Shown here one piece after another: positions 8,114 through 51,936 of a stretch of DNA of 64,000 nucleotides. Under the pieces are notes generated by a model, which worked only from the letters and a program-made list of their open reading frames with translations, did not search any database and had not been told where the DNA came from. The stretch comes from Sporomusa malonica. Lineage in GTDB: Bacteria; Bacillota; Negativicutes; Sporomusales; Sporomusaceae. The stretch lies in contig NZ_FWXI01000002.1 of assembly GCF_900176355.1 (NCBI RefSeq), forward strand, positions 62,001 to 126,000, in the 5' to 3' direction. Position 1 is the stretch's first letter. Every line of letters begins with the position of its first letter. Position numbers and translations under genes: made by a program.

Positions 8114-8208
8114 AGTACTGACGGACATTGGCCTTTTTTGGTGGAAATAATATCTCCTTGTTTCCATGGTTATAATAGCTAAGAAGTCTAGCTCTACGAG
8201 GTGAAGAT

Positions 8209-8531: not shown

Positions 8532-8544
8532 TGGGAGGTTTAAT

Positions 8545-8976: not shown

Positions 8977-8986
8977 AAACGAAAAT

Positions 8987-9670: not shown

Positions 9671-9687
9671 ATTTTTGCTCAATCTGA

Positions 9688-9978
<291 letters not shown>

Positions 9979-27508: not shown

Positions 27509-29329
27509 ATGCGTATACTTATAGGGCGTTGCCTGGCGGCGCTAGTGGCGGTATTCGTAATGCTGCCGATTTTTGCCCAGGCTGCGCCTGAATTTATGCC
27601 TGTTGATCAAATTGTCAAAGGCATGCATGGTACAGCCAAAACTGTTGTTGCAGGCAGCCAAATTGAGGAATTTGGCGTAGAAGTATTGGGAGTTATGAAG
27701 CAAAAAGGTCCGTCCGGTGATCTTATTTTGGTTCGCACCTATGGCGACGTTATCGAGCGAACAGGCGGCATTGCTCAGGGAATGAGTGGCAGCCCAGTAT
27801 ATATAAATGGTAAGCTGGTTGGGGCCATCGCTTATGGCTGGTCGTTGACCGACCATAAGATCGGCATGGTAACACCCATTGCCGATATGCTTAAGTTATG
27901 GGAGCTGAATAGCGGTCAGGGTGAACTGCAGACTCGGGGGCAAGAAGAGCAGGGTAACGCCGTAAGTACGCCGCTTATGGTGTCTGGTTTTGGCGAGCAG
28001 GCTCTCAAGCTGCTGGCAGACAAGCTAAAGCCCTACAATTTGACTCCTTACGCAGTGAGCGGCAGCATGTCTGATAGCAACAATGGCATTGCCTACAAAA
28101 CAGTTGAGCCTGGCAGCACAGTTGGTGTACAACTGGTACGGGGTGATATCAGCGTAGGTGCTTTGGGCACTGTAACCCATGTGGAAGGAGACAAAATACT
28201 GGCCTTTGGCCATCAGTTCCTTAAACGGGGTAAGGCTAACTATTTCCTGACAGATGCTGAGGTATATACTACATTAAGCGGCTTGGAAAATTCGTTCAAA
28301 GTGGGAACCTCAACTGAAACCATCGGCATGATCACCCAGGATCGAGGCGCCGGTATTGCCGGTAAACTTGGACAATTTCCTGGTATTGTGCCACTTCGGA
28401 TTAGTGTTACCGATAAAACACTGGGGCGTACCAATGACCTATGGGCGCAGGTTGTGCAGGATGAAGAACTTGCACCTGTTCTTTCGGCAGTCAGTGTGTT
28501 TAATGCTATTGAAAAGACCACCGACCGCATTGGTTCAGGTACTGCCAGAATCAACTTTGAAATCAGTGCAGCTGGTATTCCCGGCGGCGTGTTGAAACGC
28601 GAGAATATGTTCTATACGCAAGGAAATATAGGTGAGCTGGCGGTAGCCGAGGTTCATGAAGCATTGGCGCTTTTAGCAGGCAACCAGTTCAGTGCTGTTG
28701 ACATTATGGATGTTAAAGTAAACGTTACCGTAGACAGCGAACGGCGCACAGCAACTATTCTTGAAGCAAAGGTCAACACTGCTGCGGCCAAACCTGGCGA
28801 TAAGGTAGATATCGCTGTTAAAATCAAACCATTCCGGCTTGAGCCCATAACTAGGCATATTACTTATACTGTGCCGAAAGAGCAGCAGCCTGGAACGCTG
28901 ATGCTATCAGTGCGCGGCGGCGGTATGGTCTCTATGGCGCAGCTTATTGGCAAACGCCAAAACGGTGAGGAAGATCTCAGCAAACTGTTTATGACCAAAG
29001 CCCGGCCAAAATCCCTGGACGAAGCTGTTAAAGAACTGGTCAATCGTGACAGAAATAACGACATCGTTGTGGAGACCATTGAGATGAATATGCCTGACAC
29101 TAATCCGAATGGCGAAGGCAAAAGCGCCAAACCGGTTGCCGATAAGTTTGAACCAACACCTAATCCTGCACTTCCCGGTGTTGCTGGTAAGAAACCTGCC
29201 AAAACAGGACACACCGGCAATGAAACCGCCAAAGCGGGCAAAGTCGACGACGGCAAGCGCAAAGTATCAATATCCACAGATTACATCATAGATGGTGACA
29301 CTCAAGTCATGATAAACATAACAAAATAA
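27509..29329 (+). CDS. SpoIVB-type S55 serine protease domain protein
   Basis: A 606-residue exported protein with a signal peptide (1-25) and an N-terminal S55 domain. The nucleophile motif GMSGSP at 91-96 (Ser93) follows GGIAQ; His40 in GMHGTA and Asp80 in YGDV are likely triad partners. In Bacillus, SpoIVB cleaves SpoIVFA to start sigma-K processing, but that protein has a PDZ domain before the S55 domain and is about 426 residues long. Here S55 comes first and a long beta-rich and Pro/Lys-rich extension follows, so this is a different architecture. It may process envelope proteins (inference). ATG 27509 follows GAAAGGATG. Confidence 0.8.
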   Translation: MRILIGRCLAALVAVFVMLPIFAQAAPEFMPVDQIVKGMHGTAKTVVAGSQIEEFGVEVLGVMKQKGPSGDLILVRTYGDVIERTGGIAQGMSGSPVYINGKLVGAIAYGWSLTDHKIGMVTPIADMLKLWELNSGQGELQTRGQEEQGNAVSTPLMVSGFGEQALKLLADKLKPYNLTPYAVSGSMSDSNNGIAYKTVEPGSTVGVQLVRGDISVGALGTVTHVEGDKILAFGHQFLKRGKANYFLTDAEVYTTLSGLENSFKVGTSTETIGMITQDRGAGIAGKLGQFPGIVPLRISVTDKTLGRTNDLWAQVVQDEELAPVLSAVSVFNAIEKTTDRIGSGTARINFEISAAGIPGGVLKRENMFYTQGNIGELAVAEVHEALALLAGNQFSAVDIMDVKVNVTVDSERRTATILEAKVNTAAAKPGDKVDIAVKIKPFRLEPITRHITYTVPKEQQPGTLMLSVRGGGMVSMAQLIGKRQNGEEDLSKLFMTKARPKSLDEAVKELVNRDRNNDIVVETIEMNMPDTNPNGEGKSAKPVADKFEPTPNPALPGVAGKKPAKTGHTGNETAKAGKVDDGKRKVSISTDYIIDGDTQVMINITK

Positions 29330-29521: not shown

Positions 29522-30292
29522 ATGCTTATTGAACTGTTTTCCCGTACTGGAAGAAGTGTTATCAGTGCTTTTGAGAATATAGGGCAAGTGCTAATCTTGT
29601 TTGGTCAGACGATTTATCACTTACGACAAATGAATAGTACACTGCTGCTTAGGCAAATGGCGCATTTGGGTGCAGATTCACTGCCAATCGTGTTGCTCAC
29701 TATGCTGTTCACCGGCATGGTAATGACGGTACAGACGGCTCATGAATTTGTAAAATACGGGGCACAGTCGTCTGTCGGTGGTTTGGTAGCAGTGGCTATG
29801 GGGCGCGAGCTATCGCCCGTTTTGACCGGGGTTGTGTTTGCCGGACGGGTGGGAGCCGCAATTACGGCTGAGATTGGCTCTATGAAGGTAACTGAGCAAA
29901 TCGATGCCCTGCGGGTTATGGCCGTAAACCCGGTTGCCTACTTGGTAGTTCCCCGGATGATTGCGTGCATGGTCATGGTGCCGGTATTAGTTATCTTTGC
30001 CGATATCATTGGTACAATTGGCAGCTACATGATTGCTACAACATACTCTGGCATCAGTTCTTTTACATTCTTTAACTCGATCAAGGTCTTTGCTATACCG
30101 CACGATATTACCGGTGGTTTGGTTAAGGCCATGTTCTTTGGCGGTATTGTTGCCATTATCGGCTGTCACAAAGGACTAACTACCGCGCAAGGCGCTGAAG
30201 GCGTTGGACAGGCAACAACAGGCTCTGTCGTACTGTCTATTGTTCTGATTTTTGTTAGTAATTACTTTTTATCAGTACTATTATACCGTTAG
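29522..30292 (+). CDS. mlaE: MlaE family phospholipid ABC transporter permease
   Basis: A 256-residue inner-membrane permease with about five membrane helices. The family motifs MGRELSPVLTGVVFAGRVGAAITAEIG (near 94-120) and EQIDALRVMAVNP (near 125-137) are characteristic of MlaE/YrbE proteins that move phospholipid between the membranes with MlaF and MlaD. ATG 29522 follows AAGGAGC. MlaF and MlaD genes follow directly; MlaB and MlaC are absent nearby, as in the reduced system known from Veillonella. Its place in a large outer-membrane cluster fits. Confidence 0.95.
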   Translation: MLIELFSRTGRSVISAFENIGQVLILFGQTIYHLRQMNSTLLLRQMAHLGADSLPIVLLTMLFTGMVMTVQTAHEFVKYGAQSSVGGLVAVAMGRELSPVLTGVVFAGRVGAAITAEIGSMKVTEQIDALRVMAVNPVAYLVVPRMIACMVMVPVLVIFADIIGTIGSYMIATTYSGISSFTFFNSIKVFAIPHDITGGLVKAMFFGGIVAIIGCHKGLTTAQGAEGVGQATTGSVVLSIVLIFVSNYFLSVLLYR

Positions 30293-30314
30293 TAACATTA
30301 AACGAGGTAAATCC

Positions 30315-31073
30315 ATGATTAAGCTAGTTAATGTCAATATGAACTTTCGCGGCAAACAAACCCTCAGAGACATTAACCTGACAGTGAAGCAAGGGGAGAT
30401 CATGGTCATCATCGGCCCCAGTGGATCAGGCAAAAGCACGCTGCTTCGCCTGATAATCGGGTTGTTGAAGCCCACCTCCGGCGAGGTCTGGGTCAGTGAC
30501 CGGGAAATCACCCGCATGACTGAAGATGAGCTCAACAAAGTCAGGTTGGAAATGGGGATGGTTTTTCAGTACTCAGCCCTATTTGATTCAATGTCTGTAG
30601 GAGAAAATGTGGCTTTTGGTCTTAGGCAGCATACCGATATGCCAGAGGAAGAGATTTTGCGGACAGTGCGGCGCAAGTTGCGCATGGTAGGCCTCAGGGG
30701 ACAGGAGAATGCTATGCCGAACGAGTTATCAGGCGGTATGAAAAAAAGGGTCAGTTTGGCCAGAGCCATTGCGATCAACCCTCATCTTGTTCTTTATGAT
30801 GAGCCAACTGCTGGACTTGACCCCATTATGTCTAATACCATTGATCGGCTTATTGTGAGTACAAGGCGAATGATTGACGCTACCTCAGTGGTTGTTACCC
30901 ATGATATGTCGAGTGCTTTTCGCATTGCCGACCGGATTGCCATGATCTATGATGGCAGCATTATTGAAATAGGTACACCAGATACTATCAAACAGTCTGA
31001 AAACCCGATTGTGGCTAAGTTTATCCGAGGGGCATCTGCCCTGCCGGAAAGTAAAGGGAGGGCGAAAATATGA
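30315..31073 (+). CDS. mlaF: MlaF family ABC transporter ATPase
   Basis: A 252-residue ATPase that powers the MlaE permease. It has Walker A GPSGSGKS (residues 34-41), signature LSGGMKKRVSLARAI near 137, Walker B LVLYDEPTAGLDP near 159, and the switch His in VTHDMSS. The GMKKR signature variant is typical of MlaF. ATG 30315 follows ACGAGGTAA; the frame is open further upstream, into the end of mlaE, but without a start that has a ribosome site. The stop overlaps the mlaD start by four bases (ATGA), so the two are coupled. Confidence 0.95.
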   Translation: MIKLVNVNMNFRGKQTLRDINLTVKQGEIMVIIGPSGSGKSTLLRLIIGLLKPTSGEVWVSDREITRMTEDELNKVRLEMGMVFQYSALFDSMSVGENVAFGLRQHTDMPEEEILRTVRRKLRMVGLRGQENAMPNELSGGMKKRVSLARAIAINPHLVLYDEPTAGLDPIMSNTIDRLIVSTRRMIDATSVVVTHDMSSAFRIADRIAMIYDGSIIEIGTPDTIKQSENPIVAKFIRGASALPESKGRAKI

Positions 31074-32341
31074 ATACCGAGGCCAAGGTTGGAGCTATCA
31101 CTCTTGCCGGCCTTGTTTTACTGGGTGGAATGCTTGTCTATCTGAGTGGCGTTAGCTTTGGCGACAAAGGCTATCCTATCCAGGCCGTGTTTGGGCAGGT
31201 AAATGGTTTGAAACCAGGTAACATTGTCCGTTATGCCGGTGTCGAGGTAGGCAGAGTGGCCGATGTCAGGGTATTGCCTGAGGGCGTGGCTGCCGACATC
31301 CTGCTAAACCCGGGTGTCAAAGTACCGGCAGGTTCTGCCTTTACCATCGGCTCAGACGGCCTGCTAGGCGAAAAATACATAAATATTATGCCGCCTCGGG
31401 AACTCAAAGGCTTCTTAGTCCCGCACGATAAAGTGTATGGTGAGAATCCTCAAGGGCTCGACGAAATGATGGTCACAGCCAATCAGGTATTGGCTGAGGT
31501 TAAGATATTAGTCAAGGCGCTTAATGATGTATTAGCTGACGACAAGGTAAAAGCAGCGCTCAAGGAAACAGCATTAAACACTCGTGAAATAACGGCAAAC
31601 CTTAACAGATTAACGTTAACCTTAGCGACCCTGGCTGAAAATAACCAGGGAGATGTGACCGCTATGGTAGGCAACCTAAAAGCCATGTCTGCCAGTCTCA
31701 AGGACACAGCAGCCAGGGTAGATAAAATGATCACCAATGTCGACAATGACGGGCAGACAGCCAAAGATTTGCGTGAGACCATCGCTGCGCTTAGGCAAAC
31801 TAGCAGCCGGGTCGAAAAAATGGCAGCTGCCCTAGAAGGGGTTGTAACCGACCCTGAAACCTCAAAAAATATCAAAGAAACCTTGAGAAACGCTCGCGAT
31901 GCGACAGCGAAGGCCAATAAAATGCTAGATAAAGTAAGTGATATAAAAGCCGAGACCAGTGTTGAAACACTATACAACTCAGATAAGCACAAATACCAAA
32001 GCAGTGCCGATGTTACTATCAGCACCTCCCCTAGGGACTTTACTGTTATTGGCGTCAGTGATATCGGTGAAGACAGTAAACTAAACCTCCAGCTAGGAAA
32101 AAGCGGTCCGGCTTTTAATCAGCGTTACGGCATTATTGACAGCAAAGCCGGTGTCGGCGTTGATGCCAAGCTTGGCAATCAACTGCGCATGTCACTGGAT
32201 GTATACGACCCAAATGATGTGCGAGTCAAGCTGCGTACCCAGTACCAGATAGCACCAGGTACCTTTATTGTCGGTCAGTCCGCTGACCTGAATAAACGGG
32301 ATGAAAAAACATCTTATTTTGGTATACGGCAGGCGTTTTAG
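31070..32341 (+). CDS. mlaD: MlaD (MCE) protein with long helical and C-terminal beta extension
   Basis: A 423-residue protein, more than twice the length of Escherichia coli MlaD. After one membrane helix (about 7-27) comes the MCE domain (35-115) with GLKPGNIVRYAGVEVG. A long helical region rich in Ala, Thr, Lys and Asp follows (130-300), and then a C-terminal beta-rich part (305-423) with alternating strands and a final Phe, the mark of an outer-membrane barrel. Such fused MlaD proteins were reported in Veillonella as bridges across the periplasm, so this one probably links inner and outer membranes for lipid transport. It overlaps mlaF by four bases. Confidence 0.92.
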   Translation: MNTEAKVGAITLAGLVLLGGMLVYLSGVSFGDKGYPIQAVFGQVNGLKPGNIVRYAGVEVGRVADVRVLPEGVAADILLNPGVKVPAGSAFTIGSDGLLGEKYINIMPPRELKGFLVPHDKVYGENPQGLDEMMVTANQVLAEVKILVKALNDVLADDKVKAALKETALNTREITANLNRLTLTLATLAENNQGDVTAMVGNLKAMSASLKDTAARVDKMITNVDNDGQTAKDLRETIAALRQTSSRVEKMAAALEGVVTDPETSKNIKETLRNARDATAKANKMLDKVSDIKAETSVETLYNSDKHKYQSSADVTISTSPRDFTVIGVSDIGEDSKLNLQLGKSGPAFNQRYGIIDSKAGVGVDAKLGNQLRMSLDVYDPNDVRVKLRTQYQIAPGTFIVGQSADLNKRDEKTSYFGIRQAF

Positions 32342-32454: not shown

Positions 32455-33774
32455 ATGACACAAATTAAATTATCCGACAGAATGGCCAAGCGCATAACGG
32501 CCTTGCTTACCGGCGGTATGTTGGCAGCTGCTGCGCTCCCAGGCTTTGCTGCACCTGTGGAACTTACGCTGGATGAAGCCATTGTTATGGCGCTCAAGAG
32601 TAACCCTGCAATTAAAATCTCTGAATCTGATGTAAAAAAAGCCGATTGGGATATAAAAGCGGCTAAAGCGGGGAAAGCGCCGTCAGTGGATCTTTCTCAT
32701 AACGCCAGCCGCTCTAAGAGTGCAGAATCTAAAATTCTTGGTGTTACGATCCCAAGTAGCATCGGCAACAAATTTGCCAACAGCGTTGACATGACATTGC
32801 CTTTATATACTGGCGGCAGACTAGAGGGAACAATTGAAAAAGCCAAGCTAGGGCGTAAATCAGCTGATTTCGGTGTGGAGAAAGCCCAGCAGCAGGTTAA
32901 GCTTGATGCGACTAACGGTTATTACAGCATTCTCCAAACCCGTAACCTTGTGAAACTTCGTGAAGAGTCCGTAAACCAGCTCACCGCACATTTAAAAAAT
33001 GTTGAGGCTCAGTATGGTGCAGGGACGGTAGCTAAATCTGATGTCTTGCGTTCTGAAGTAGAAAAAGCGAAAGCCGAACAGAATTTAATTATAGCCAAAA
33101 ACTCTTATGAGCTGGCTATATCAAACCTTAACAATGTGATTGGGTTACCGCTTGAGACTGAGATTGCCGTTAAAGAAGAACTAAAATACGAGGAATTTAG
33201 TCAGACACTAGAAGACTGCATTAAGCTTGCGCTGGCAAATCGTCCTGATTTAGCTCAGGCAAATACCAGTGTCGAGAGTGCCAAAGCTGACATTAAAGTG
33301 GCTGAGAGCGGCAGTAAGCTTTCAGTAGCTGCCACTGCTTCTGAGAAATGGAGTGACAGTGAATTTCCTGGTACAGACAACAACACCTGGGCTATTGGCA
33401 TTAATGCCAGCTATAATCTTTTTGATGCAGGCATTACCAAGTCAAAAGTGAAGGGCGCAGAAGTCACCCTGGATAAAGTAAGCGAGCAGCTGCGTCAGAT
33501 TAAAGATGCCGCCCAACTAGAAGTGCGTCAGGCCTACCTAAATATGAAAGAAGCCGAAAAACGCATTGACACAAGCAAAGTAGCTGTAACCAAAGGTGAA
33601 GAAGATTTTAAAATTGCTCAAGTGCGCTACAGTGCCGGAGTAGGCACTAATCTTGATGTTATCGATTCTCAGGTTGCCTTAACCTCAGCCAAAACTGATT
33701 ATGTTCAAGCCCTGTACGACTACAACACCAGCCGTGCTAAGCTTGACAAAGCCATGGGCGTGGCAGTTAAATAA
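32455..33774 (+). CDS. tolC: TolC family outer-membrane efflux protein
   Basis: A 439-residue outer-membrane channel protein of the TolC/OEP family. A signal peptide (about 1-33, ending PGFAAP) is followed by two homologous halves, each with long helices and beta strands; LTLDEAIVMALKSNP opens the first, LEDCIKLALANRPDL the second. It should form the exit duct for type I secretion or drug efflux, or for lipid-related export. No inner-membrane pump gene is next to it. It has its own strong promoter and operator candidate, then a terminator, so it is separately controlled within the cluster. ATG 32455 lies some distance from AAGGAGG. Confidence 0.92.
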   Translation: MTQIKLSDRMAKRITALLTGGMLAAAALPGFAAPVELTLDEAIVMALKSNPAIKISESDVKKADWDIKAAKAGKAPSVDLSHNASRSKSAESKILGVTIPSSIGNKFANSVDMTLPLYTGGRLEGTIEKAKLGRKSADFGVEKAQQQVKLDATNGYYSILQTRNLVKLREESVNQLTAHLKNVEAQYGAGTVAKSDVLRSEVEKAKAEQNLIIAKNSYELAISNLNNVIGLPLETEIAVKEELKYEEFSQTLEDCIKLALANRPDLAQANTSVESAKADIKVAESGSKLSVAATASEKWSDSEFPGTDNNTWAIGINASYNLFDAGITKSKVKGAEVTLDKVSEQLRQIKDAAQLEVRQAYLNMKEAEKRIDTSKVAVTKGEEDFKIAQVRYSAGVGTNLDVIDSQVALTSAKTDYVQALYDYNTSRAKLDKAMGVAVK

Positions 33775-33929: not shown

Positions 33930-36900
33930 ATGCGAACCAAAGCCGTAATTTTAACTGTACTATTGTTTGTGCTTGGCACGGTCGCCTTTGGTTGGTGGTC
34001 TACCCAGAGCCAGACGATTTTTTCCCAGCTTGAAAATACGCTGGCTGCAGAGCTTACCCAGGCGCTGGACATCAAAGTTGACATTGGGCAAATTCAAGCA
34101 GCTGGACTAACCTCGGCGTCTGTAAATAATGTGATCCTTTTTGATAAGCAGGGCCGGGAATTGGCTGCTATCAAGCAGGTGACTGTAGAATATAGTTTGC
34201 TAAGTCTGGCACGTGGCCGAACTGCCATTGACGCTGTGCGCAAGATTACTCTTACCCAACCTAACATCAAGCTGATCGAAGATGCTGACGGCACCTGGAA
34301 TGCCCAGTGCCTAAAACAAAAAAATCAGCCTAATAGCCCGAGCTTTAATGGTAAAGTTGTCATTGAACAGGCAACTGTCAGTATCCAGGCTCTTCTGGGG
34401 GAATGGCACCTTACTGGTGTCGATGGACAGCTTGGGATCAAAGACAGTCAGGCTGTTGATGTGAAACTAACAGCAAGCCATAATGATTCGCGTGTGAGTG
34501 TGCAGGGCTTTCTTGACAATGCCAAGAACAACCTGTCTCTGACTGTCAAAGCCGATAAACTGAATCCAGCAGCTTATAATAAGCTGCTTCCGGCGGGTAC
34601 CGACATTACATTTACCGGCGGTTTCCTAAATAATATAGAAGTGACTCTTGCCAATAGCTCAACAGGCTTGAATTACGCAGGCGAATTCTCGATTGATACC
34701 CTGGCTGCAAAGGCCGCAGGTATCACTATTGAAGATGCGCGTGGTCAGGTAAGCTTTACCAATAACAATATATACATACTTGGCAGCAGCGCTCTTGTGG
34801 CCAGCCAACCGGTAACAGTACGCGGTAAAATCGGCATAGCGGGTGATCAGCCTGTCTTTGACTTAAATGTAACCTCGCAGGGCTTTGATCCTGCGGCTGT
34901 AAGCCGTAATCTCCCGTTTGCCGGCGTTGTTGCTTTTAACGCGTCACTTACCGGAAGCCCCAAAAGCCCTATTGTTGCAGCTGAACTAACAGCCAAAGAT
35001 GTGACTGCCTCAGGCTATAGGCTGCAGGATACCAGTGCCAAAGTCAATTTTGCCGATAAGATGATCACGTTCAGCGAGTTTGCCACACAGATGATCGGTG
35101 GTCAGGTACGCGCCCAAGGGATGTTTGATACAGTCAGAGAGGCCTATCAAGTGCAACTGGCTGCCAGTAATATTGATGCTTCGGCAGTCAGTGGATTGCC
35201 TGTTACGCTAAGCGGCAGAGGTGACATCACTCTAGCGGTTAACGGCCAAGGCAATGACTGGAAGAACATGAATGGTTTAGCTGCGGTAACACTTGCCTCC
35301 GGCCAATTGGAGGGTGTACCCTATACTAAAATGACCGGGCTTATTGAGCGCAGCGGTAAGATAACCGAAATTAAACACTATGATATCCTGCTGCCCTCAG
35401 GTCTTATTACAGCTGCAGGGACAATACAAGAGGATAAACTTAACGTAAAAATAGAAGGGCAAGGCATTGAACTGACAGACCTACCCTTTGCTACGATAAA
35501 AAATATCAGTTTTGCCGGTAAAGCTGGTTTTCAGGGAGAAATAACTGGTACGACAACTCAGCCGCAGCTTGCCATGGATTTTAACGCTGTTAATATTACT
35601 CTGAATCAGCAAGCATTAGGTCAGGCTAGCGGTATATTTAAAGCCTCGCCTAGCTCAGTATCAGTCGAGCAAGTAACCATTAGCGATGGTGTCGCCACGC
35701 ATGAACTTTCTGGAACCATACTGCTGGCAGGAGCACGACCAGAGGTCAATCTTACACTGCTAACCCGTTCTGCCAGGGCTGAAACATTTTCCCGGCTGAT
35801 TATGCCAGAGATTACGTTAACCGGCAATCTTGAGCACGAAATGACAGTGAGCGGACCTGTAGATAACCTGGCTGCTCGCGGCAGAATGAGATTATCTGAC
35901 GGCAGTCTGGCCGGATACCTTGTTGCCAAAGCTGAGGGCACATATGAGCGGCAGAATGGCGTCATAACGGTCAACGATCTTACCATAAACTCACTGAATA
36001 CCAAAGTAAAACTGTCAGGAACAGTGGCGTCTGATAACAGCCTCAACGTTGCTGTTGTAGCCGAGAATATTGATATTTCCAGGCTAAAAGCAGAATATCC
36101 CTACCCTGTGTCCGGTATATTTAATCTAACAGGACAAGTAACAGGCAATGTGCTTCGGCCTGAAGCCCGCGCTCAACTGACTTCAAGTGGAGTCTTGCTA
36201 AATGGTCAGGAATTGAAAAATATTTATGCCAATGTAAGCTATTCTGATGGTCAGGCTGATATCAAAGAACTGCGCTTTGCTCAAGGCCAGGGTAACTACG
36301 TTTTTAACGGTGCAGTTGATGTTAAAACCCGTGGAATTGACGGAATGCTAAGAGCCGAAGGCGGCGAATTAGCAGGAATACTGGCGATGGCCAATACACC
36401 GGATCGTGGTATTCGTGGCAAATTGAATGGAGAAATTGCGTTAAGCGGCAGTATCGAGAATCCTAACATCTTGCTGCGAGGCGCGATAGTAAACGGCAAA
36501 ATAAAAAATTACCTGTTTGATAGTGTTGATATAGATGCCGAGCTTAATAATAAGGTAATTACAATCAATAATCTTATGGCCAAACAGGGAGCCGATGGTG
36601 TACTTGTCGCCAAAGGTCAGGCAGATCTAAACGGTGAAATGGACTTTGAAGTAGGCGGCCGTGCTATTGATGCCGGTATTATTACAGCGCTATTCGATAC
36701 AACGGTTGAAACTAAAGGAAAGTTCAGTTTTAATGCCCAGGCTGGCGGCGCTACAGCCGATCCTAATGTTTCTGTTTCCCTGGAAGTACAAAACGGTAGT
36801 GTCGCTAATGCTGAATTTGATAATCTCTATGGCCTGTTCATTTATAACAAAGGCAGCATCCATGTTAACCAGCTGTTTCTGGCGCGTGGAGCCTATAAAG

Positions 36901-38258
36901 CAAGTGCCTACGGTACTGTACCGTTGAAGGCGCTAAACAGCCAGGGACGTAATAAAGCAGATATTACAGACGCCATGGACCTTAAATTGCGGCTTGATAA
37001 TGCTGATCTAAGTATACTGCCACTGCTAACTAAGGATATAGCCTGGGCTTCTGGTCCGACTACAGGCGAGATCGCCATCGGTGGCACACTTTCACAGCCT
37101 ACGCTTGATGGCCAGGTAGCTGTGGTTAACGGTACCATCAAGCTAAAGGCGCTGGCAGACCCTATCCAAAAAGTAGGGATTGATATTCAGTTCAAAGGTG
37201 ATAAAATAGAGATAAACGCTTTCGATGGTGAAATGGGTGGCGGTTCTTACTCCCTCAATGGTTCGGCCAGAGTAAATGGCTTAGCACTTGACGACTATAA
37301 CATTACGCTTACGTTAGCGCGCTTAGGCGTTAACCATAAATACTTTGACGGACCTTTAGAGGGTGTTTTATCACTAACAAGTCAAAATGGCAAGCCGCAT
37401 CTTTATGGCAAACTCATGGTTGCCAATGCAACTGTCAATATTCCAGCTGTGCCTGACAGCGGTGAAATTGATTTTGACGCCGGATTAGATGTTGAATTTG
37501 TTATCGGTGACAAAGTCAGGATGTATAACCCCTATCTGTATGATTTTAGGACTGCCGGCAAAGTTAAATTTTCCGGGACACTCCAAAAACCAGAAGCTTC
37601 CGGCCGCATTGAAGCCCTGCGCGGTACGGTAAAGTATTTAACTAATCGCTTTACTATTGTGAGCGGCAGCGCTGAGTTCACTCAGTACCGCTCCATTGAG
37701 CCGATAATCAAGCTGCAGGCTGAAGCCAAGCTTGAGCGTACGACCATTAATTTAGCGATAAACGGCCCGGCCACAGCCATGGAGCTTAAACTGACCTCAG
37801 AGCCGGCCATGAGCCAGCAAGAAATCATGTCACTTCTGACCTTGCGTGGCGGGTATTTTTCCAAATCGAATTCCTCCGGGCATGACAGCAGTCTTGGGCG
37901 TGATGAGTTGGTCAGTTTGCTTGATGCAGGTCTCCAGATGCGGTTTATCGCCGAAGTCGAAAGTACCCTGCAAGATACTTTAGGAGTTGACGAATTCCGC
38001 CTGGTACGCTCATCAATATTTGATACCAGCACAAGAGGCACACGCAGTAACGAAGCTGACAGCCAGTTTCAGGGATATAATATTGAAATTGGCAAATACC
38101 TCACAGATAAATTTTTATTAAGCTATACCATGGGTCTTGACCAGCATAACAACAGCATTGGATTTCGGTATGACATCACCAGAAATATTGGGATAGGTGG
38201 CTCATTCGGCGGCACAACCAAAAGCCTGCTTACTGTTGAGACCAGGTTTGCTTTCTAA
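33930..38258 (+). CDS. tamB: TamB/AsmA-like envelope lipid-transport protein
   Basis: A 1442-residue protein with one N-terminal membrane anchor (about 5-23) and a very long beta-rich body of repeated segments, ending in a TamB (DUF490) domain and a terminal Phe. Such proteins form grooved rods that carry phospholipid across the periplasm, or help insert outer-membrane proteins with an Omp85 partner. The C-terminal region (about 1240-1442) is the most conserved and holds the KLEASGRIEAL-like strands typical of TamB. ATG 33930 follows AAGGGAGGAG. In Negativicutes tamB lies with mla and bamA genes, as here. Confidence 0.92.
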   Translation: MRTKAVILTVLLFVLGTVAFGWWSTQSQTIFSQLENTLAAELTQALDIKVDIGQIQAAGLTSASVNNVILFDKQGRELAAIKQVTVEYSLLSLARGRTAIDAVRKITLTQPNIKLIEDADGTWNAQCLKQKNQPNSPSFNGKVVIEQATVSIQALLGEWHLTGVDGQLGIKDSQAVDVKLTASHNDSRVSVQGFLDNAKNNLSLTVKADKLNPAAYNKLLPAGTDITFTGGFLNNIEVTLANSSTGLNYAGEFSIDTLAAKAAGITIEDARGQVSFTNNNIYILGSSALVASQPVTVRGKIGIAGDQPVFDLNVTSQGFDPAAVSRNLPFAGVVAFNASLTGSPKSPIVAAELTAKDVTASGYRLQDTSAKVNFADKMITFSEFATQMIGGQVRAQGMFDTVREAYQVQLAASNIDASAVSGLPVTLSGRGDITLAVNGQGNDWKNMNGLAAVTLASGQLEGVPYTKMTGLIERSGKITEIKHYDILLPSGLITAAGTIQEDKLNVKIEGQGIELTDLPFATIKNISFAGKAGFQGEITGTTTQPQLAMDFNAVNITLNQQALGQASGIFKASPSSVSVEQVTISDGVATHELSGTILLAGARPEVNLTLLTRSARAETFSRLIMPEITLTGNLEHEMTVSGPVDNLAARGRMRLSDGSLAGYLVAKAEGTYERQNGVITVNDLTINSLNTKVKLSGTVASDNSLNVAVVAENIDISRLKAEYPYPVSGIFNLTGQVTGNVLRPEARAQLTSSGVLLNGQELKNIYANVSYSDGQADIKELRFAQGQGNYVFNGAVDVKTRGIDGMLRAEGGELAGILAMANTPDRGIRGKLNGEIALSGSIENPNILLRGAIVNGKIKNYLFDSVDIDAELNNKVITINNLMAKQGADGVLVAKGQADLNGEMDFEVGGRAIDAGIITALFDTTVETKGKFSFNAQAGGATADPNVSVSLEVQNGSVANAEFDNLYGLFIYNKGSIHVNQLFLARGAYKASAYGTVPLKALNSQGRNKADITDAMDLKLRLDNADLSILPLLTKDIAWASGPTTGEIAIGGTLSQPTLDGQVAVVNGTIKLKALADPIQKVGIDIQFKGDKIEINAFDGEMGGGSYSLNGSARVNGLALDDYNITLTLARLGVNHKYFDGPLEGVLSLTSQNGKPHLYGKLMVANATVNIPAVPDSGEIDFDAGLDVEFVIGDKVRMYNPYLYDFRTAGKVKFSGTLQKPEASGRIEALRGTVKYLTNRFTIVSGSAEFTQYRSIEPIIKLQAEAKLERTTINLAINGPATAMELKLTSEPAMSQQEIMSLLTLRGGYFSKSNSSGHDSSLGRDELVSLLDAGLQMRFIAEVESTLQDTLGVDEFRLVRSSIFDTSTRGTRSNEADSQFQGYNIEIGKYLTDKFLLSYTMGLDQHNNSIGFRYDITRNIGIGGSFGGTTKSLLTVETRFAF

Positions 38259-38294: not shown

Positions 38295-38936
38295 ATGGTA
38301 CTTGGTCAATATCTGGCAGAACTGAAAAATGTTCGCATACTAACGCCTGAAGAAGAGCGTGCTCTCTGGCAAGGATATAAAGACGGCGGTGACCTTGGGT
38401 GCCGTCGCCGTCTTATAGAAAGCTATCAGCCATTGGTTTTTAAAACAGCCATGCGCTGGCGGCTCTCTGAAGCGACTATGCTGGATGTTATTCAGGAAGG
38501 CACAGTCGGGCTTATCGAAGCTGTCGAAAACTACGACTACACCCGGGGGGTTGCCTTTAGCCTGTTTGCCGTACACCGTATCAGGGGCCGGATCATTAAT
38601 CACCTAACACGCGAAGATGAAAGTCTGGTGTGGATAGACAGCCCGATGACAGCTGACAGCAGCCAGTCAACAATCGCGGATTTACTCATCGACGCGCACG
38701 CGGAAGTGGCTGCCCAAGCAGAGCACAATTACCTTGTTCAGCAGCTGAGAACGGCTATGGAACGTTTGCCAGTCAAAGAACAGCAAGTGTTAAGCGGCGT
38801 ATACCTTGACGACTGTGAGCCCAAGGAATTGGCGGCAAACATGGAGCTAAGCGTATCACACATCTATCGTCTGCAGAAGCAGGGGATCAGACGTTTGAGA
38901 GGCATGATGTCCAAACTAATGGGAAACTGGCGATAA
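38295..38936 (+). CDS. Sigma-70 family RNA polymerase sigma factor in the outer-membrane cluster
   Basis: A 213-residue sigma factor. Region 2 spans about residues 35-105, with VIQEGTVGLIEAVENYDYTRG and FSLFAVHRIRGRI as the core-binding and -10 recognition parts. Region 4 spans about 150-205, with a helix-turn-helix in CEPKELAANMELSVSHIYRLQKQ. Region 1 is missing and region 3 is short, resembling sporulation or flagellar group 3 sigma factors more than ECF types. No anti-sigma gene is evident next to it, unless the following membrane protein fills that role. It lies between tamB and bamA and may control envelope genes; this is inference. ATG 38295 follows AAAGGGA. Confidence 0.85.
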   Translation: MVLGQYLAELKNVRILTPEEERALWQGYKDGGDLGCRRRLIESYQPLVFKTAMRWRLSEATMLDVIQEGTVGLIEAVENYDYTRGVAFSLFAVHRIRGRIINHLTREDESLVWIDSPMTADSSQSTIADLLIDAHAEVAAQAEHNYLVQQLRTAMERLPVKEQQVLSGVYLDDCEPKELAANMELSVSHIYRLQKQGIRRLRGMMSKLMGNWR

Positions 38937-46196: not shown

Positions 46197-46829
46197 ATGA
46201 AAAAAACCATTCTTGCAGCTGCAGTATTACTTTTGGCAGCAGCTCCCGTATATGCCGCACCATCAATCAACGGCTCAACAGGTCTAATCAATACCCCATC
46301 AGCTGACGTCCTGCAGGAGGGCCAGTTTTCCCTTGGTTATCATCACTTAAAAGAGGGCGGTGTTGGTAGTTTTAACATCAGTCTGGCTAACAAGCTGGAA
46401 GTTGGTGTAGCCGGATTCCGCTATGACAACGATAGCAACAAAGAAAATCAAACCTATTTTAATGCCAAATTTGGTCTGGTGCCAGAGACTATTCTTACTC
46501 CAGGCTTGGCCATTGGGGTAGAAGATGCTGGTAATCGTGACAAGCGCACCTATTATGCCGCAGCAAGCAAAGCACTTCCGTTCGGTTTCCGCATACATGC
46601 CGGTATTGGTGACGGGCGTTATGACGGTGTATTTGCCGCTGTAGAAAAAACCATTAACCCAGTCGGTATTATTACCGGCAACAACGTATTCCCTGCTACT
46701 ACCCTGATTGCCGAGTGGGATGGCGACCGGATGAACTATGGGGCACGCATGGCAATTGTTCCAGGTCTAAAAATTGATGCCGGCTGGCGTCATAGTGAAA
46801 CCTACTTTGGGTTAAGTTACACATATTAG
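46197..46829 (+). CDS. YjbH-domain outer-membrane protein candidate
   Basis: A 210-residue exported protein with a signal peptide (about 1-20, ending VYAAP). The mature part begins SINGSTGLINTPSADVLQEGQ, a pattern characteristic of YjbH-type outer-membrane proteins, and continues as alternating strands that end in Tyr (GLSYTY), suggesting a small barrel of about ten strands. In proteobacteria YjbH proteins are much larger and linked to exopolysaccharide export, so this shorter protein may be a basic barrel of that family. ATG 46197 follows AAGGAGAA. It lies between lpxD and an acyltransferase gene. Exact function is unknown. Confidence 0.72.
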   Translation: MKKTILAAAVLLLAAAPVYAAPSINGSTGLINTPSADVLQEGQFSLGYHHLKEGGVGSFNISLANKLEVGVAGFRYDNDSNKENQTYFNAKFGLVPETILTPGLAIGVEDAGNRDKRTYYAAASKALPFGFRIHAGIGDGRYDGVFAAVEKTINPVGIITGNNVFPATTLIAEWDGDRMNYGARMAIVPGLKIDAGWRHSETYFGLSYTY

Positions 46830-46839: not shown

Positions 46840-47706
46840 ATGCAGTATCATTTGGTGAAATGTCTAAGCAGCCTGGTCTGTTTGTTGCCAGCCAGGCTTA
46901 GACGGGGTCTGGGCTGTCTGATAGGTAACCTATGCTGGCCATTTGTTCCGGTCAAAAGGCGTAACATGGCGATTAATAATATTTGCCGCAGTCTTGGCGT
47001 TGATGAACGCCAGGCATACGCGCTGGCAAAGGCCAGCGCAGTGCGGTTTGGCCCGATGTTTATGGAAGTTCTCTATATGCCGCGCTTAACGAAAGATAAC
47101 ATTGGACAGGTTGTCAAACTAAGCGGCCACGAGCATCTTGAAGCCGCTTTAAAGCTGGGGCGGGGAGCCGTATTGGCCACCGCGCACAGCGGTAACTGGG
47201 AACTGCTTGGCGCGGCCCTGGCTATGCATGGATTTCCCCTGGTTGCTGTTGTTCAGCGGCAGACAAACGCCGCCATGGACAGCTTTATCAATGAATACCG
47301 AACCAAAGCCGGCATGCATGTTACCTATAAGCAAGGCGTCCGGGAGATGGTGAAGTTGCTTTGTTCAGGCAAGATTATCGGGCTGTTAATGGATCAAGAC
47401 AATCACCGGGATGGTGTGTTTATCGAATTCTTTTCCAGGCCTGCTTCCACTCCACAGGGAGCTGCAGCCTTAGGCCGCCTGAATAATGCCCCGATAGTTC
47501 CGGCCTTTATTACAACGAACCCAGACGGAACTCACACGGCAATCATTCATCCCCACCTTATCGTGGAAAAAACAGCAGATCGCGACTATGATATTCGTAT
47601 TACTACACAGCGTTTGACACAGATTATTGAAAACCATGTTAGAAAATATCCACATGAATGGTTTTGGCTGCACAACCGCTGGAAGACACCGCCGCCTGCC
47701 ATGTAA
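46840..47706 (+). CDS. Lipid A biosynthesis acyltransferase (LpxL/HtrB family), copy 1
   Basis: A 288-residue membrane-associated enzyme that should add a secondary acyl chain to a Kdo-lipid A precursor. The HxxxxE catalytic motif is present as HSGNWE (His116, Glu121), and the family's later DQD motif occurs in GLLMDQDNHRDG near 185-196. ATG 46840 is 10 bases after the preceding stop, with AGGAG inside the gap. A second related gene lies at 62959; the two share length and the WxxxRW C-terminal pattern (WLHNRWK here, WFKKRWN there), so each may add a different acyl chain. A hairpin terminator follows directly. Confidence 0.88.
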   Translation: MQYHLVKCLSSLVCLLPARLRRGLGCLIGNLCWPFVPVKRRNMAINNICRSLGVDERQAYALAKASAVRFGPMFMEVLYMPRLTKDNIGQVVKLSGHEHLEAALKLGRGAVLATAHSGNWELLGAALAMHGFPLVAVVQRQTNAAMDSFINEYRTKAGMHVTYKQGVREMVKLLCSGKIIGLLMDQDNHRDGVFIEFFSRPASTPQGAAALGRLNNAPIVPAFITTNPDGTHTAIIHPHLIVEKTADRDYDIRITTQRLTQIIENHVRKYPHEWFWLHNRWKTPPPAM

Positions 47707-47711
47707 AAGTC

Positions 47712-47746
47712 GAGATTGCTTCGCATCAGCGAAGCAATCTCTTTTT
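47712..47746 (+). terminator. Terminator formed by a compact family B repeat, copy 3
   Basis: A 13-pair perfect stem (GAGATTGCTTCGC with GCGAAGCAATCTC), loop ATCA, then TTTTT. It shares the outer arms of the repeats at 15483 and 17034 without the inner GCAATGAC pair. Confidence 0.9.
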
Positions 47747-47790: not shown

Positions 47791-47820
47791 TAGACAATAA
47801 AATGATATACGTGATATAAT
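47791..47820 (+). promoter_or_regulatory. Sigma-A-type promoter for the unusual ABC transporter
   Basis: TAGACA at 47791-47796 and TATAAT at 47815-47820 with an 18-base spacer. The start site near 47827 rules out the in-frame ATG at 47819 and supports ATG 47849. Confidence 0.75.
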
Positions 47821-47848
47821 GTACACCAGAAATGAGGTGACTGAATCC

Positions 47849-50221
47849 ATGTTAACACAAGGAAACAAAATCATTAAATTCATGAAAAGTATGTTTAAAG
47901 ACTCGATTCAACGCGATATTCTGACACTGATTACTGTCAGTGTACTCATAGGCTCATTGTTGGCTGGTTCGGTCTCCATGGCCGCGAATACTTATTTTTC
48001 GAAAACCCTGTCCAATCTTGTGGGCGATTATGGTGAATATGACGTAATCATTCAAGTCAGAGAAGAAAATCGCGAAGATGCAGCTGTTCACATCGAAAAG
48101 ATTGTAAATGAAGTGTTTCCAGGTGGTAAAGTGAAAGCTGGTCCAAACATTACTGGTAAGACGCCGTTTTTTGTTTCTTTACCGGACCAATATAAAACTA
48201 AAAAAGTGTACGAAGATTTGACGAAAAGCTTTGGCGGCATCCCTGGCGGCGGCAGTGTCGGCGTTATGACCGAACCACGTTTGACTGTCCGGGGTGTACC
48301 GGAAGGTGCAAGAAATATGCTAATCGAGCGCATTATGCAGATGGAAGGCGTCCGCTTTGCTTTCCGGGATGGTGGATCAGTGGGCGTAATATTAAGCTCG
48401 CTTGACAAATCTTCTACTGTTAGTGCTGCGATCAAGACAGTGTTGAAGGACTATCAGGTAATTGAAATCAGTTTCCCAGTAGGCAGTGAGCCTTCCAACC
48501 CAGTGCGACTGGGTGAAGCTATTGCTGAAACCATGCAGAAAGACCTCCGCCTTGAATATGCCCAAAACGTATCTGTTGACGGTAAAAATGATGATATGAC
48601 CTACATGGTTAGCACCATGCTGGAACTGAAACGTTTCCTACAGGCATATGCGGCTCAAGTTACAGTTACCCCAGGCGCCGGTACTCAACTGGCTAAAGGG
48701 GATATTGTTGTCTTTCAGGGAACGGCTGCTACAGCTCCACAAGCTGGGAGTGCCCCGGCAAAAGGCAATGTTGTTGTGGAAATTACAGCAACTAGTGCTA
48801 ATGGTGCAGCCGAAGGCCGTATCACCGAAGGTGATGCCTCCTGGTTAGGCAACCAGACAGGCAATGCCCAAGGCTATAAACTCGAGAAAAATGCTGTAAG
48901 TGGACAAATAGTAACAGCGACATACAAAAATCCGCGTCAGGAATTGGGAACCGCTCTTAGCGAAACAGGCAAACTTGTCGGACAAATCCCCGGCTTTGCC
49001 CAAGATACTAAGAGTCTTAGTTCTGTGGCCCTTGGAGCTCTAGATAACTATGGCAGCGGTGTTGCTGCGCTGGAACAGATACTGTCCAGTCTGCAAGTAG
49101 CTGGCGGCACAATTCAGGCAGCGACCAGTGCGCTTGCTGGGATCGATACCAGCGGTATCCGCTACCAGCTTGACAATTCGTCCCGCACACTCGGAGGCCT
49201 GGCCAATAGCTTGCAGGTACTTCGTTTGGTCAATGGTGATGTTGGTACAACCATCAGTAATCTTAGTGGAGCCCAGCAGAATTTGAGTAACTTAAGCTCC
49301 AACCTGTCTCAGCTGGACGATGTAGCAGCCAATGCCAGACGCGCTAAGTCAGCCATTGACAATATTGTCGCCAATGGTCAAAATACCATAGCTACTTTGC
49401 AAGCCTTTGACGTGAATGGTGCAAGAACCAGTCTCACAAGTGCTAATACCCGTCTGGGGGCACTGCAGGAATTGAATGTGCCCATAATTACTACCCAGGT
49501 TCAGTACCTGGCAGGTGCTGTTCCTAACCTTAAAGACGAAGAAATTAACCACTCAATCAATTTGTTGGATAAATTCATTGCCGGACAAGTAATTCCTGGT
49601 GCACGAATCCAGATTTTGACTACCAGCAGCATTGATGTTAACTCGGTCGCTCCTGTTGTTCATAAGCAGGCAGGCCATGAAAATGTATCACTGTATTCGA
49701 CAGCGCTGGGGGTAATCGAACCTGATCCACGTGGTGAGCTGTATCAGGTGCTCACCGAGGTTAAGAGTATTCTGGCCGGTATGACGGCCATAATTATTAC
49801 CATCTTATTCCTGGGGCTTGACCACACCGCGATTATGACAGTCATACGCCGTAAGCGTCTAAGCAAAAAAGTACCTCTTACCGGCTGGCGCAAAGTAGTT
49901 GAACGCATGACAATCACCTTTAGTGCCCCTGAACGCAGCTATGGTATGGGTGTAGGGGCGGTAATGCTAACAGCCATGTTCATTCTGTCAGGCGGCGGTA
50001 TCCCGTATCTTCCCTGGATTGGCGTGCCATTCCTGGGAGCCATGCTTGGTCTGGTGGTTGCCTGTTATACCGAAAAAATCAGCCCGATTGCCGGTGAGGA
50101 AGTTATGGCCGGCGAGGCACTAGGCCTTTCTATGGATGAAGTAATGCGCGAGATCGTTATCCCCAGCGGTCGTCCAGGTCTAATGCAAAAACTCAATCAA
50201 CGTAAAGTAAAATTTAAATAG
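47849..50221 (+). CDS. Large ABC transporter permease-like protein with periplasmic coiled-coil domain
   Basis: I do not recognise a named family. The 790-residue protein has one membrane segment near residues 20-45, a very large external region (about 50-635) and three membrane segments at the end (about 642-665, 700-717, 723-740). The external region contains long Ala/Ser/Asn/Leu/Gln helices (about 400-580) likely to form a coiled coil. The C-terminal cytoplasmic stretch EALGLSMDEVMREIVIP resembles the EAA coupling loop of amino-acid and metal ABC permeases. An ATPase gene follows 16 bases later. ATG 47849 follows GAGGTGA. A trans-envelope transporter for a lipid or envelope component is inferred from lying next to lpxC. 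Confidence 0.7.
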   Translation: MLTQGNKIIKFMKSMFKDSIQRDILTLITVSVLIGSLLAGSVSMAANTYFSKTLSNLVGDYGEYDVIIQVREENREDAAVHIEKIVNEVFPGGKVKAGPNITGKTPFFVSLPDQYKTKKVYEDLTKSFGGIPGGGSVGVMTEPRLTVRGVPEGARNMLIERIMQMEGVRFAFRDGGSVGVILSSLDKSSTVSAAIKTVLKDYQVIEISFPVGSEPSNPVRLGEAIAETMQKDLRLEYAQNVSVDGKNDDMTYMVSTMLELKRFLQAYAAQVTVTPGAGTQLAKGDIVVFQGTAATAPQAGSAPAKGNVVVEITATSANGAAEGRITEGDASWLGNQTGNAQGYKLEKNAVSGQIVTATYKNPRQELGTALSETGKLVGQIPGFAQDTKSLSSVALGALDNYGSGVAALEQILSSLQVAGGTIQAATSALAGIDTSGIRYQLDNSSRTLGGLANSLQVLRLVNGDVGTTISNLSGAQQNLSNLSSNLSQLDDVAANARRAKSAIDNIVANGQNTIATLQAFDVNGARTSLTSANTRLGALQELNVPIITTQVQYLAGAVPNLKDEEINHSINLLDKFIAGQVIPGARIQILTTSSIDVNSVAPVVHKQAGHENVSLYSTALGVIEPDPRGELYQVLTEVKSILAGMTAIIITILFLGLDHTAIMTVIRRKRLSKKVPLTGWRKVVERMTITFSAPERSYGMGVGAVMLTAMFILSGGGIPYLPWIGVPFLGAMLGLVVACYTEKISPIAGEEVMAGEALGLSMDEVMREIVIPSGRPGLMQKLNQRKVKFK

Positions 50222-50237
50222 ATAGGAGGTGAGCTAG

Positions 50238-51011
50238 GTGCTCAATATCCAAAACCTGTATAAAACGTTTGGCAGCCTTGTCGCAGTTAACAACCTGAAC
50301 CTGTCCGTGGCTCCAGGGGAAACAGTCGTTATTATGGGGCCATCAGGCTGCGGCAAATCAACAACAATCCGGATGATCAACAGGCTGATTGAGGCTGATA
50401 GCGGCTCAATCCTATTTGACGGAGTAGATATTACCCAATTAGATGATCATACCCTAAGAAACATGCGCAAACGCATCGGGTATGTGTTTCAGCACTTCAA
50501 TCTCATCAACCGCCTCAGCGCGGTGGAGAATGTCATGCTAGGCCTGGTCATGGGCGGCCAATCCAAGGAAGAAGCCTATGATAAAGCCCTGGCGGCACTG
50601 ACAAAAGTAGGTATGGAGCAGTTGATTGATCACAAACCAGGTCAACTATCTGGTGGTCAGCAGCAGCGGGTGGGTATCGCCCGCGCTCTGGCGTTCGAAC
50701 CTGAGCTCATGTTATGGGACGAGCCAACTGCTTCGCTTGACCCCATGCTTGTCAGAGAGGTACTAGTAGTCATGGAAGAACTGGCAAAATACCGGGCTGC
50801 CACCATGCTGGTAGTTACCCATGAAATTGCCTTTGCCCTGCATGTGGCCGACCGCATTGTGCTTATGGAAAAGGGCGCGATTGTCGAGTCTGGCATACCC
50901 AGTCAGGTATTTGTAAATCCGGTTTCCCACGTTGGCTGCCAGTATAAAGAGCTTATCGAGTATCAGCTGAATACCAGCGCCCGTACCCTGGCTGGCAAAC
51001 GTATAGCATAG
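50238..51011 (+). CDS. ABC transporter ATPase (GlnQ-like) paired with the large permease
   Basis: A 257-residue ATPase of the polar amino acid (GlnQ/HisP) type, with Walker A GPSGCGKS (residues 35-42), signature LSGGQQQRVGIARAL near 137, Walker B LMLWDEPTASLDP near 158 and switch His in VTHEIAFA. The start is GTG 50238, after TAGGAGGTGAG. No solute-binding protein gene or ordinary GlnP permease is adjacent; the only partner is the preceding 790-residue membrane protein. The two probably form one transporter. A family-level assignment as amino-acid importer should not be taken at face value in this context. Confidence 0.9.
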   Translation: MLNIQNLYKTFGSLVAVNNLNLSVAPGETVVIMGPSGCGKSTTIRMINRLIEADSGSILFDGVDITQLDDHTLRNMRKRIGYVFQHFNLINRLSAVENVMLGLVMGGQSKEEAYDKALAALTKVGMEQLIDHKPGQLSGGQQQRVGIARALAFEPELMLWDEPTASLDPMLVREVLVVMEELAKYRAATMLVVTHEIAFALHVADRIVLMEKGAIVESGIPSQVFVNPVSHVGCQYKELIEYQLNTSARTLAGKRIA

Positions 51012-51108: not shown

Positions 51109-51936
51109 ATGGAACGCCAAACCACAGTCGCTTCGCGCGTAGTGTATACAGGCATTGGCCTGCATTCTGGGCGGGACGTGACAATTGCACTCAATCCGGC
51201 CCCTGCTGATAGTGGCATTGTATTTGAGCGCACTGACCTTGCTGGCTTGCCACGTGTGTCTGCTCAAGCTGTCAATGTAACCAATACAATGCGCGCTACT
51301 ACCCTAGAGCGAGGAGAAGCCAAGGTTTTTACCGTAGAACACCTGTTGGCTGCCTTTTACGCGATGGGTATTGATAATTGCCTGGTGGAGATATCATCGG
51401 TGGAACCGCCAGTCGCTGACGGCAGTTCTCTGCCTTTTCTTCAACTGATTGAGTCAGCAGGCCTTGCCTGTCAAGATGAACTGCGCCAGCCGCCGATTGT
51501 TGTTAAAGAAGCCATCTCAGTGCGTTATCCTGATAAATTTATTGCCATTTTGCCTTATGACGGATTTCGCATCACTTTTACCTCAATTAACCCGCATCCG
51601 CTGTTAGGTGTTCAGTTTGGCGACTATGAGATCACTCCTGAAGTTTTTGCCCGGGAGCTGGCTCCGGCCCGCACCATCGGTTTTATGCACGAGGTCGAGG
51701 CACTTAAGGCGCAAGGCTTAGCCTTGGGTGGCAGCCTGGAGAATGCAGTAGTATATGACGACAAAAATTGCCTAACGCCGCTTAGGTTCACTGATGAGCT
51801 GGTTCGGCATAAAATTTTAGATGTAATTGGCGATTTGGCGCTGGCTGGACGTATTGCCGGTCATGTTATTGCAGTAAAATCCAGTCATGCGCTCAATACC
51901 GCGCTGGCAAAAGAAATAGTAAAAGCAAGTATGTGA
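51109..51936 (+). CDS. lpxC: UDP-3-O-acyl-N-acetylglucosamine deacetylase
   Basis: LpxC removes the acetyl group from UDP-3-O-acyl-GlcNAc, the committed step of lipid A synthesis. The 275-residue zinc enzyme has His78 in VEHLLAA and the second zinc motif around HKILDVIGDLAL near 230-241, with the catalytic His in AVKSSHALN near 260. Length is a little short of the Escherichia coli enzyme (305) but normal for diderm Firmicutes. ATG 51109 follows CAGGAGG. It has its own promoter and heads the run of lpxC, fabZ, lpxA, lpxI and lpxB. Confidence 0.97.
   Translation: MERQTTVASRVVYTGIGLHSGRDVTIALNPAPADSGIVFERTDLAGLPRVSAQAVNVTNTMRATTLERGEAKVFTVEHLLAAFYAMGIDNCLVEISSVEPPVADGSSLPFLQLIESAGLACQDELRQPPIVVKEAISVRYPDKFIAILPYDGFRITFTSINPHPLLGVQFGDYEITPEVFARELAPARTIGFMHEVEALKAQGLALGGSLENAVVYDDKNCLTPLRFTDELVRHKILDVIGDLALAGRIAGHVIAVKSSHALNTALAKEIVKASM

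Follow-up and report, generated by a model that had tools for sequence, protein, structure and literature searches.

A permease-ATPase gene pair of the lpx/bam cluster that accompanies sporulation genes in the Negativicutes

The window analysed here is a stretch of 64,000 nucleotides from Sporomusa malonica (contig NZ_FWXI01000002.1, positions 62,001 to 126,000, forward strand). It carries two adjacent genes, coding for a 790-residue permease-like protein, here called PERM, and for an ATP-binding cassette (ABC) ATPase. Throughout the Negativicutes, the pair is present in genomes with sporulation genes and absent from those without them, with few exceptions. Comparison of sequences and gene order places the pair within the lpx/bam cluster, and shows that the two products belong together as one predicted inner-membrane ABC machine and that PERM ends in an EAA-type coupling loop. 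The pair had been singled out from the sequence alone (the original prediction); the link to sporulation genes, the clean absence of the pair from similar clusters and its spread outside the Negativicutes go beyond that description.

Distribution and gene neighbourhood

The Negativicutes set, 300 genomes, was searched with the single PERM sequence at an E-value of 0.001. PERM was found in 54 genomes and SpoIVA in 51: both were present in 50, PERM only in 4, SpoIVA only in 1 and neither in 245 (phi 0.94). A profile search of eleven PERM-less genomes still revealed no PERM, and a weak match in genome G260 (E 3e-5, residues 609-702 of a 1057-residue frame) was kept out of the counts.

The single genome with SpoIVA only (G051) is 89% complete and lpxC was likewise not found there, which makes it probable that the assembly lacks its PERM locus. 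Among the four PERM-only genomes, G030 and G037 hold a near-complete SpoIVB domain; in the other two (G119 and G066, 65% and 83% complete) only a weak SpoIVB-like match was obtained. Weak partial matches of this kind are present in all seven SpoIVA-less genomes tested. The window codes for a 606-residue protein (27509-29329) with a partial match to the SpoIVB peptidase family (S55), which seems to be a protein of the cluster, not a sporulation protease, since such a match is shared by those seven genomes.

Two proteins were used as controls. FlhA was found in 165 of the 300 genomes, 116 of them without PERM (phi 0.34); on this single control, PERM as a general trait of free-living habit or genome size was rejected as the main driver. 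MlaD was found in 294 genomes, and the possibility that PERM replaces the Mla system where MCE proteins are absent was discarded on this count.

The absence of the pair was analyzed in 20 SpoIVA-less genomes with lpxC, one to few per family. At 15 of these loci, lpxL (13 cases) or a YjbH-like gene (2 cases) lies directly before lpxC, and only the PERM and ATPase genes are missing between them. Within the sequence available, the surrounding genes otherwise keep their usual arrangement, except that several of these loci gave no match for the YjbH-like gene or for the orf41485 homologue. At the other five loci, different genes precede lpxC. In 8 of the 20 loci the YjbH-like gene precedes lpxL or lpxC, so that its presence does not follow sporulation.

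The original prediction had called for a profile search for PERM relatives; homologues were found both in the Negativicutes and in other classes of the phylum. Among 348 phylum genomes, 72 gave a PERM match, of which 69 were kept, 68 of them from other classes. The matches in G326, G372 and G525 (frames of 237-264 residues) were dropped as ordinary permeases, on the basis of their length and of the part matched. Four of the genomes retained, all from one family (G306, G352, G390 and G424), match over the last 90 positions only; the surroundings of the G306 match fit. Outside the Negativicutes, SpoIVA was present in 67 of the 68 genomes with PERM versus 225 of the 268 without it, for a base rate of 292 in 336 (Fisher p 5e-4, kinship not corrected).

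The number of independent changes was evaluated on a tree of 56 genomes (58 having been asked for RpoB), built from five concatenated proteins and 3,562 columns. The state in which both PERM and SpoIVA are absent requires 7 changes on the best tree, at least 5 of them forced by supported branches, on a tree which does not separate gain from loss and whose bootstrap is not fully settled. A repeated joint change of PERM and sporulation genes is thus well supported, but not beyond doubt.

Gene order was scored in 56 loci where the PERM copy of the cluster came with long flanking sequence, namely the window, 25 other Negativicutes and 30 genomes of other classes, the last hand-picked from strong and weak matches among the 68. 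The count excludes L001-L030, which are short, and all second copies of PERM. The order repeatedly found in the Negativicutes is bamA, skp-like genes, lpxD, lpxL, PERM, ATPase, lpxC, fabZ, lpxA, lpxI, lpxB and msbA, with lpxL undetected in a few loci (e.g. L049 and L058). In 49 of the 56 loci, lpxC follows the pair within 2.5 kb (25 of 26 in the Negativicutes, 24 of 30 in other classes). The loci with no lpxC downstream are L035, at a contig edge, L255 (G360), L247, L248, L274, L276 and L277.

In the last five of these loci the PERM and ATPase genes are kept, and lpxC, lpxA and lpxI do not lie beside them; bamA- or skp-like genes are found near the pair in L247, L274, L276 and L277, not in L248. 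Pfam matches for LptF/G were obtained near the pair in three regions from other classes (G324, G360 and G566), together, in G324, with OstA-, LptC- and LptA-like genes; the proteins tried near the pair in G613 and G306 proved to be other things. The pair is accordingly best placed with the genes of outer-membrane assembly, rather than with LpxC on its own. The tie to lipopolysaccharide (LPS) and the outer membrane, originally proposed from the window, therefore recurs in the lpx adjacency across the phylum and in the nearby lptF/G genes.

The coupling loop and the architecture of the pair

The main features of the two genes, in window coordinates, are the following.

47849..50221, forward strand: PERM, permease-like protein of 790 residues, start set by the ribosome-binding site
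49946..50065, forward strand: third and fourth membrane segments of PERM (residues 700-739), from hydropathy, with low confidence in the AlphaFold model
50096..50182, forward strand: EAA-like coupling loop EEVMAGEALGLSMDEVMREIVIPSGRPGL (PERM residues 750-778), from conservation and the tail profile
50238..51011, forward strand: partner ABC ATPase, 257 residues, from the ABC_tran match

The two products are tied to each other by gene order and by a natural fusion. The ATPase gene lies directly downstream of PERM in 54 of the 56 loci; a contig ends there in one (L035), and in another (L271, genome G485, 6875-9775, minus strand) PERM and ATPase form a single frame of 966 residues, which adjoins lpxC and shows the Pfam ABC_tran domain at residues 741-889. 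The fusion is strong evidence that the two proteins work together. The ATPase itself matches ABC_tran with an E-value of 1.3e-39 and carries Walker A, LSGGQ and Walker B motifs. It had been described as GlnQ-like, and GlnQ is indeed its best NCBIfam match, at 246 bits versus a cut-off of 379; it is accordingly classed as GlnQ-like but not as GlnQ.

The tail of PERM, reported earlier as an EALGLS...IVIP stretch resembling the coupling loop of amino-acid-type permeases, shows good conservation across the 32 members aligned, down to an identity of 34%. The EAA-like stretch can be seen in 27 of the 30 distant homologues, while for the remaining three the printed residues lie beyond it. A profile built on the tail was used to search 3,229 open reading frames (ORFs), among which 30 permease loci had been deliberately included, so that the base rate of such loops is about 1 in 100, not zero. 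The 54 PERM rows came first, followed by EAA-type loops of type I ABC permeases in 11 of the next 12 domain rows. The best of these is an amino-acid-type permease (E 1.9e-4); the odd row is another segment of one of those permeases, and row 13 is unrelated (E 1.1). L123 and L194, not among the deliberately added loci, also scored with EAA-like segments, their identity as permeases being given by motif alone. A very divergent PERM homologue in G306 matches BPD_transp_1 with an E-value of 0.007 (16.5 bits versus a cut-off of 26.4). The profile ranking thus bears out the predicted loop.

By hydropathy, PERM has four membrane segments (residues 20-38, 638-656, 700-718 and 721-739) and about 599 external residues, in agreement with the four segments and very large external part first described. 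Its parts follow in the order: first membrane segment, two ferredoxin-like subdomains, a beta domain, a helical arm, a beta-alpha-beta unit, second membrane segment, a loop, third and fourth membrane segments, and the EAA tail. The AlphaFold model shows helices in the arm, with a confidence between low and middling (mean pLDDT, the predicted local distance difference test score, 61); among homologues its length varies and its ends are conserved.

Family searches with PERM gave two weak matches in Pfam (E 0.07 and 0.18) and two in NCBIfam (E 0.027 and 0.13), all far under the cut-offs. The architecture had been predicted to lie outside known families, and no model of either collection reaches its cut-off; a match to a permease family for small molecules, which would have spoken against the original prediction, was looked for in the same collections and none was found. 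As a single sequence, PERM had no match among PDB sequences at E-values up to 10, and a PDB sequence profile gave weak matches only, mostly on the helical arm. Structure-library searches with the head and arm returned common folds, coiled coils and weak porter-like matches only.

Compared with known systems, the pair resembles type I amino-acid importers (GlnQ/HisP ATPase with a BPD_transp_1 permease) in its GlnQ-like ATPase and its EAA loop. It differs from them in that PERM has no Pfam BPD_transp_1 match at E-values up to 1, only four membrane segments, a periplasmic domain of 600 residues, no helix after the EAA loop and no adjacent binding-protein gene. Permeases of type I importers have membrane helices past this loop. 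MacB, LolCE and FtsEX are built as one membrane segment, a large periplasmic domain and three further helices; PERM shares, by hydropathy, this arrangement of one plus three helices around a single large periplasmic domain, but has no FtsX or MacB family match in Pfam or NCBIfam and ends in the EAA tail. EAA loops belong to importers and are not known from MacB-type systems. RND/MmpL transporters, such as MmpL5 with its coiled-coil arm, are also among the closest known systems; PERM has no RND or MMPL family match in Pfam. By its ATPase and coupling loop, the pair is therefore to be regarded as an ABC system outside every permease family tested, and the combination of importer-type coupling with a long periplasmic domain is new to the family models used.

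Two further ABC systems of the envelope were compared. LptB2FG likewise serves the LPS pathway, and its LptF/G components occur near the pair in the three regions mentioned; PERM differs in having no LptF_LptG (PF03739) match. Mla is set apart by its MCE domain (PF02470), for which PERM has no match, and by its distribution (MlaD in 294 and PERM in 54 of the 300 Negativicutes genomes). Like the pair, the MlaEFD system, which in Veillonella has a long MlaD (PMC10665443), is an ABC system of this outer-membrane cluster, with MlaE, an MlaF-like ATPase and MlaD encoded in the window. The Veillonella paper proposes that V. parvula has further lipid-trafficking systems yet to be discovered. The available portion of PMC5007114 (eLife) describes the cluster and discusses three other unassigned genes, not the PERM-ATPase pair. 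No description of the pair was found in the searched text passages of the open literature; a published figure of the cluster may contain it as genes without labels.

Possible function and alternatives

As a tentative reading, which may well be overturned, the pair is proposed to be an EAA-coupled inner-membrane ABC machine with a periplasmic arm, which takes part in assembling the outer membrane and for which spore formers have a special need. Two PERM chains would dock on the ATPase dimer by way of their EAA loops, in the manner of type I importers; this mode of coupling is suggested by the loop and by the GlnQ-like ATPase. ATP hydrolysis would move the periplasmic head and arm, and the covalent periplasmic domain may stand in for a binding protein. 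The gene neighbours point to outer-membrane lipids as the field of action. The activity would most likely be lipid transfer, with the inner membrane at one end and, at the other, the outer membrane or the outer spore membrane, which resembles an inner membrane; in the original prediction, the arm would reach towards the outer membrane for lipid or LPS-related transport. Inward movement is favoured because the loop is of importer type: phospholipid would be drawn inward while Lpt supplies LPS. Such a process would serve the new making of an asymmetric LPS membrane at spore formation or outgrowth, and the distribution of the pair suggests that lpx-bearing cells without sporulation genes can dispense with it.

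In diderm spores, the outer spore membrane derives from the inner membrane and must turn into an LPS outer membrane at outgrowth; how it is remodelled is not known, as stated in the accessible part of PMC7985256. A more specific version of the proposal, rather doubtful at present, would make the pair a dedicated machine of diderm endospore formers for this very conversion, acting as an ATP-driven system of importer type that strips phospholipid from the future outer membrane, in retrograde direction along the arm, while Lpt loads LPS; the pair would have been inherited from a diderm spore-forming ancestor of these classes and lost whenever sporulation was lost.

Several observations weigh against the proposed role in outer-membrane assembly of spore formers. 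SpoIVA is a stand-in for sporulation, genes having been read and not spores. All five independent pairs of the tree changed in the same direction, but the resulting p of 0.0625 is the least that five pairs can give; in this test G119, G066 and G051 were left out, and G030 and G037 were counted as sporulation-positive. With the RpoB-only tree and unrescored labels, about two pairs went the same way, none the opposite way, and three showed no difference. Of the 30 loci from other classes, 6 have no lpxC beside the pair (G375, G411, G470, G494, G518 and G360). On the protein side, no membrane helix of PERM follows the EAA loop by hydropathy, only twelve residues remaining (MQKLNQRKVKFK), and the membrane part of the AlphaFold model is of low confidence. 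The sigma-A-like promoter described below suggests that the pair is probably expressed in growing cells as well. The lipid substrate, the inward direction and the timing are, moreover, inferred.

Three other explanations were weighed. In one, the pair would work by mechanotransmission, in the manner of MacB or FtsEX, the arm being pulled to switch a periplasmic partner (e.g. an enzyme acting on peptidoglycan or a factor in outer-membrane assembly) during engulfment or outgrowth, with no lipid moved. The order of membrane segments and periplasmic domain is that of these systems, and an arm that varies in length and has conserved ends would suit a lever or spacer; the missing FtsX or MacB family match, the importer-type loop and the lipid genes around the pair all make this explanation unlikely. 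The position directly before lpxC in 49 of the 56 loci would also suit a machine that senses or regulates the LPS pathway, reading the lipid state of the periplasm and tuning LpxC/FabZ or Lpt for the restart of LPS synthesis after dormancy. Six loci, however, keep the pair with no adjacent lpxC, and no sensor domain was recognised in PERM by Pfam or NCBIfam, so that such a role appears quite improbable.

The remaining explanation bears on distribution: the pair could be an ancestral envelope transporter with no bearing on sporulation, and its loss in lineages that lost spores as well could be coincidence. Many of the genomes without PERM and SpoIVA are indeed small, and supported changes between lineages are few; both genes are also absent, however, from genomes of 3.3-3.9 Mb which contain FlhA (G007, G010, G016 and G022), the cluster around the gap is retained in 15 of the 20 loci described above, and FlhA does not follow PERM. 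Chance loss is therefore judged improbable, and the role in outer-membrane assembly of spore formers is retained as a working proposal. The pair represents a concrete candidate, which may be deleted, for the rebuilding of the outer membrane in diderm spore formers. If the link to sporulation holds, the pair would also offer a genetic way into the question of how sporulation and the second membrane are related, a point at the heart of the debate over diderm and monoderm Firmicutes.

The locus, its control signals and second copies

The remaining features of the locus are listed below, in window coordinates.

46840..47706, forward strand: lpxL (lipid A acyltransferase), upstream neighbour, from Pfam
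47712..47746, forward strand: terminator-like hairpin after lpxL, with a 13-bp stem and a 4-nt loop (47712-47741), followed by a T run
47791..47820, forward strand: sigma-A-like promoter, TAGACA-18-TATAAT with extended -10, from a consensus scan (11 of 12 matches, TG before the -10)
47834..47840, forward strand: PERM ribosome-binding site GAGGTGA, fitting the start at 47849
51109..51936, forward strand: lpxC, downstream neighbour, from an ATG behind AGGAGG; the mechanical ORF begins at 51079

The lpxC gene was named from its own sequence and its position before fabZ-lpxA, and served as lpxC query. The placement of the pair between a lipid A acyltransferase gene and lpxC stands as originally given, and no binding-protein gene is adjacent in the window, where lpxL and lpxC are the neighbours; a binding protein may be encoded elsewhere. 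The longest mechanical ORF of PERM begins at 47819; GAGGTGA supports the start at 47849, and with it the length of 790 residues already assigned. In four Sporomusa relatives the ribosome-binding site is GGGGTGA or GAGGTGA, in the same place.

Consensus scans also agree with the promoter of its own that had been attributed to the pair, the sigma-A-like site lying behind the terminator-like hairpin, so that the two would part PERM and ATPase from lpxL. The promoter block is kept in the window and in the four named relatives. The hairpin is a consensus match and no proof of function, as 4 such sites occur in the 3.5-kb region and 3.3 are expected. No promoter for a sporulation sigma factor recurs upstream of the PERM gene in 21 upstream regions scanned with patterns for such factors. 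A sigma-G-like site was seen in two Pelosinus sequences (L037 and L044), within the reading frame, and the other matches are a sigma-K-like site in L044 and a sigma-H-like site in the window, within the frame.

Further upstream, the window contains other genes of known lipid-trafficking systems within the cluster of the pair: MlaE, an ABC ATPase in the MlaF position and a 423-residue MlaD (29522-32341), followed by a TolC-like gene (32455-33774) and TamB (33930-38258). A 213-residue sigma factor, with Sigma70 regions 2 and 4, is encoded within the outer-membrane cluster, between TamB and BamA (38295-38936), and the YjbH-like gene, for a small outer-membrane protein, is found at 46197-46829.

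A second full-length PERM is present in 16 Negativicutes genomes, with 51 to 57% identity to the query. These copies lie outside the cluster, in mixed surroundings, and 15 of the 16 have their own ATPase adjacent. The copy in L055 (8957-11317) has no adjacent ATPase and lies beside an RND pump and an HlyD-like partner; RND neighbours, suggested as a rule for second copies by ORF length, were rejected as such, being true of L055 only. In L054 and L260, the second PERM-ATPase pair is followed by an msbA-like ABC exporter, split in two frames in L260.

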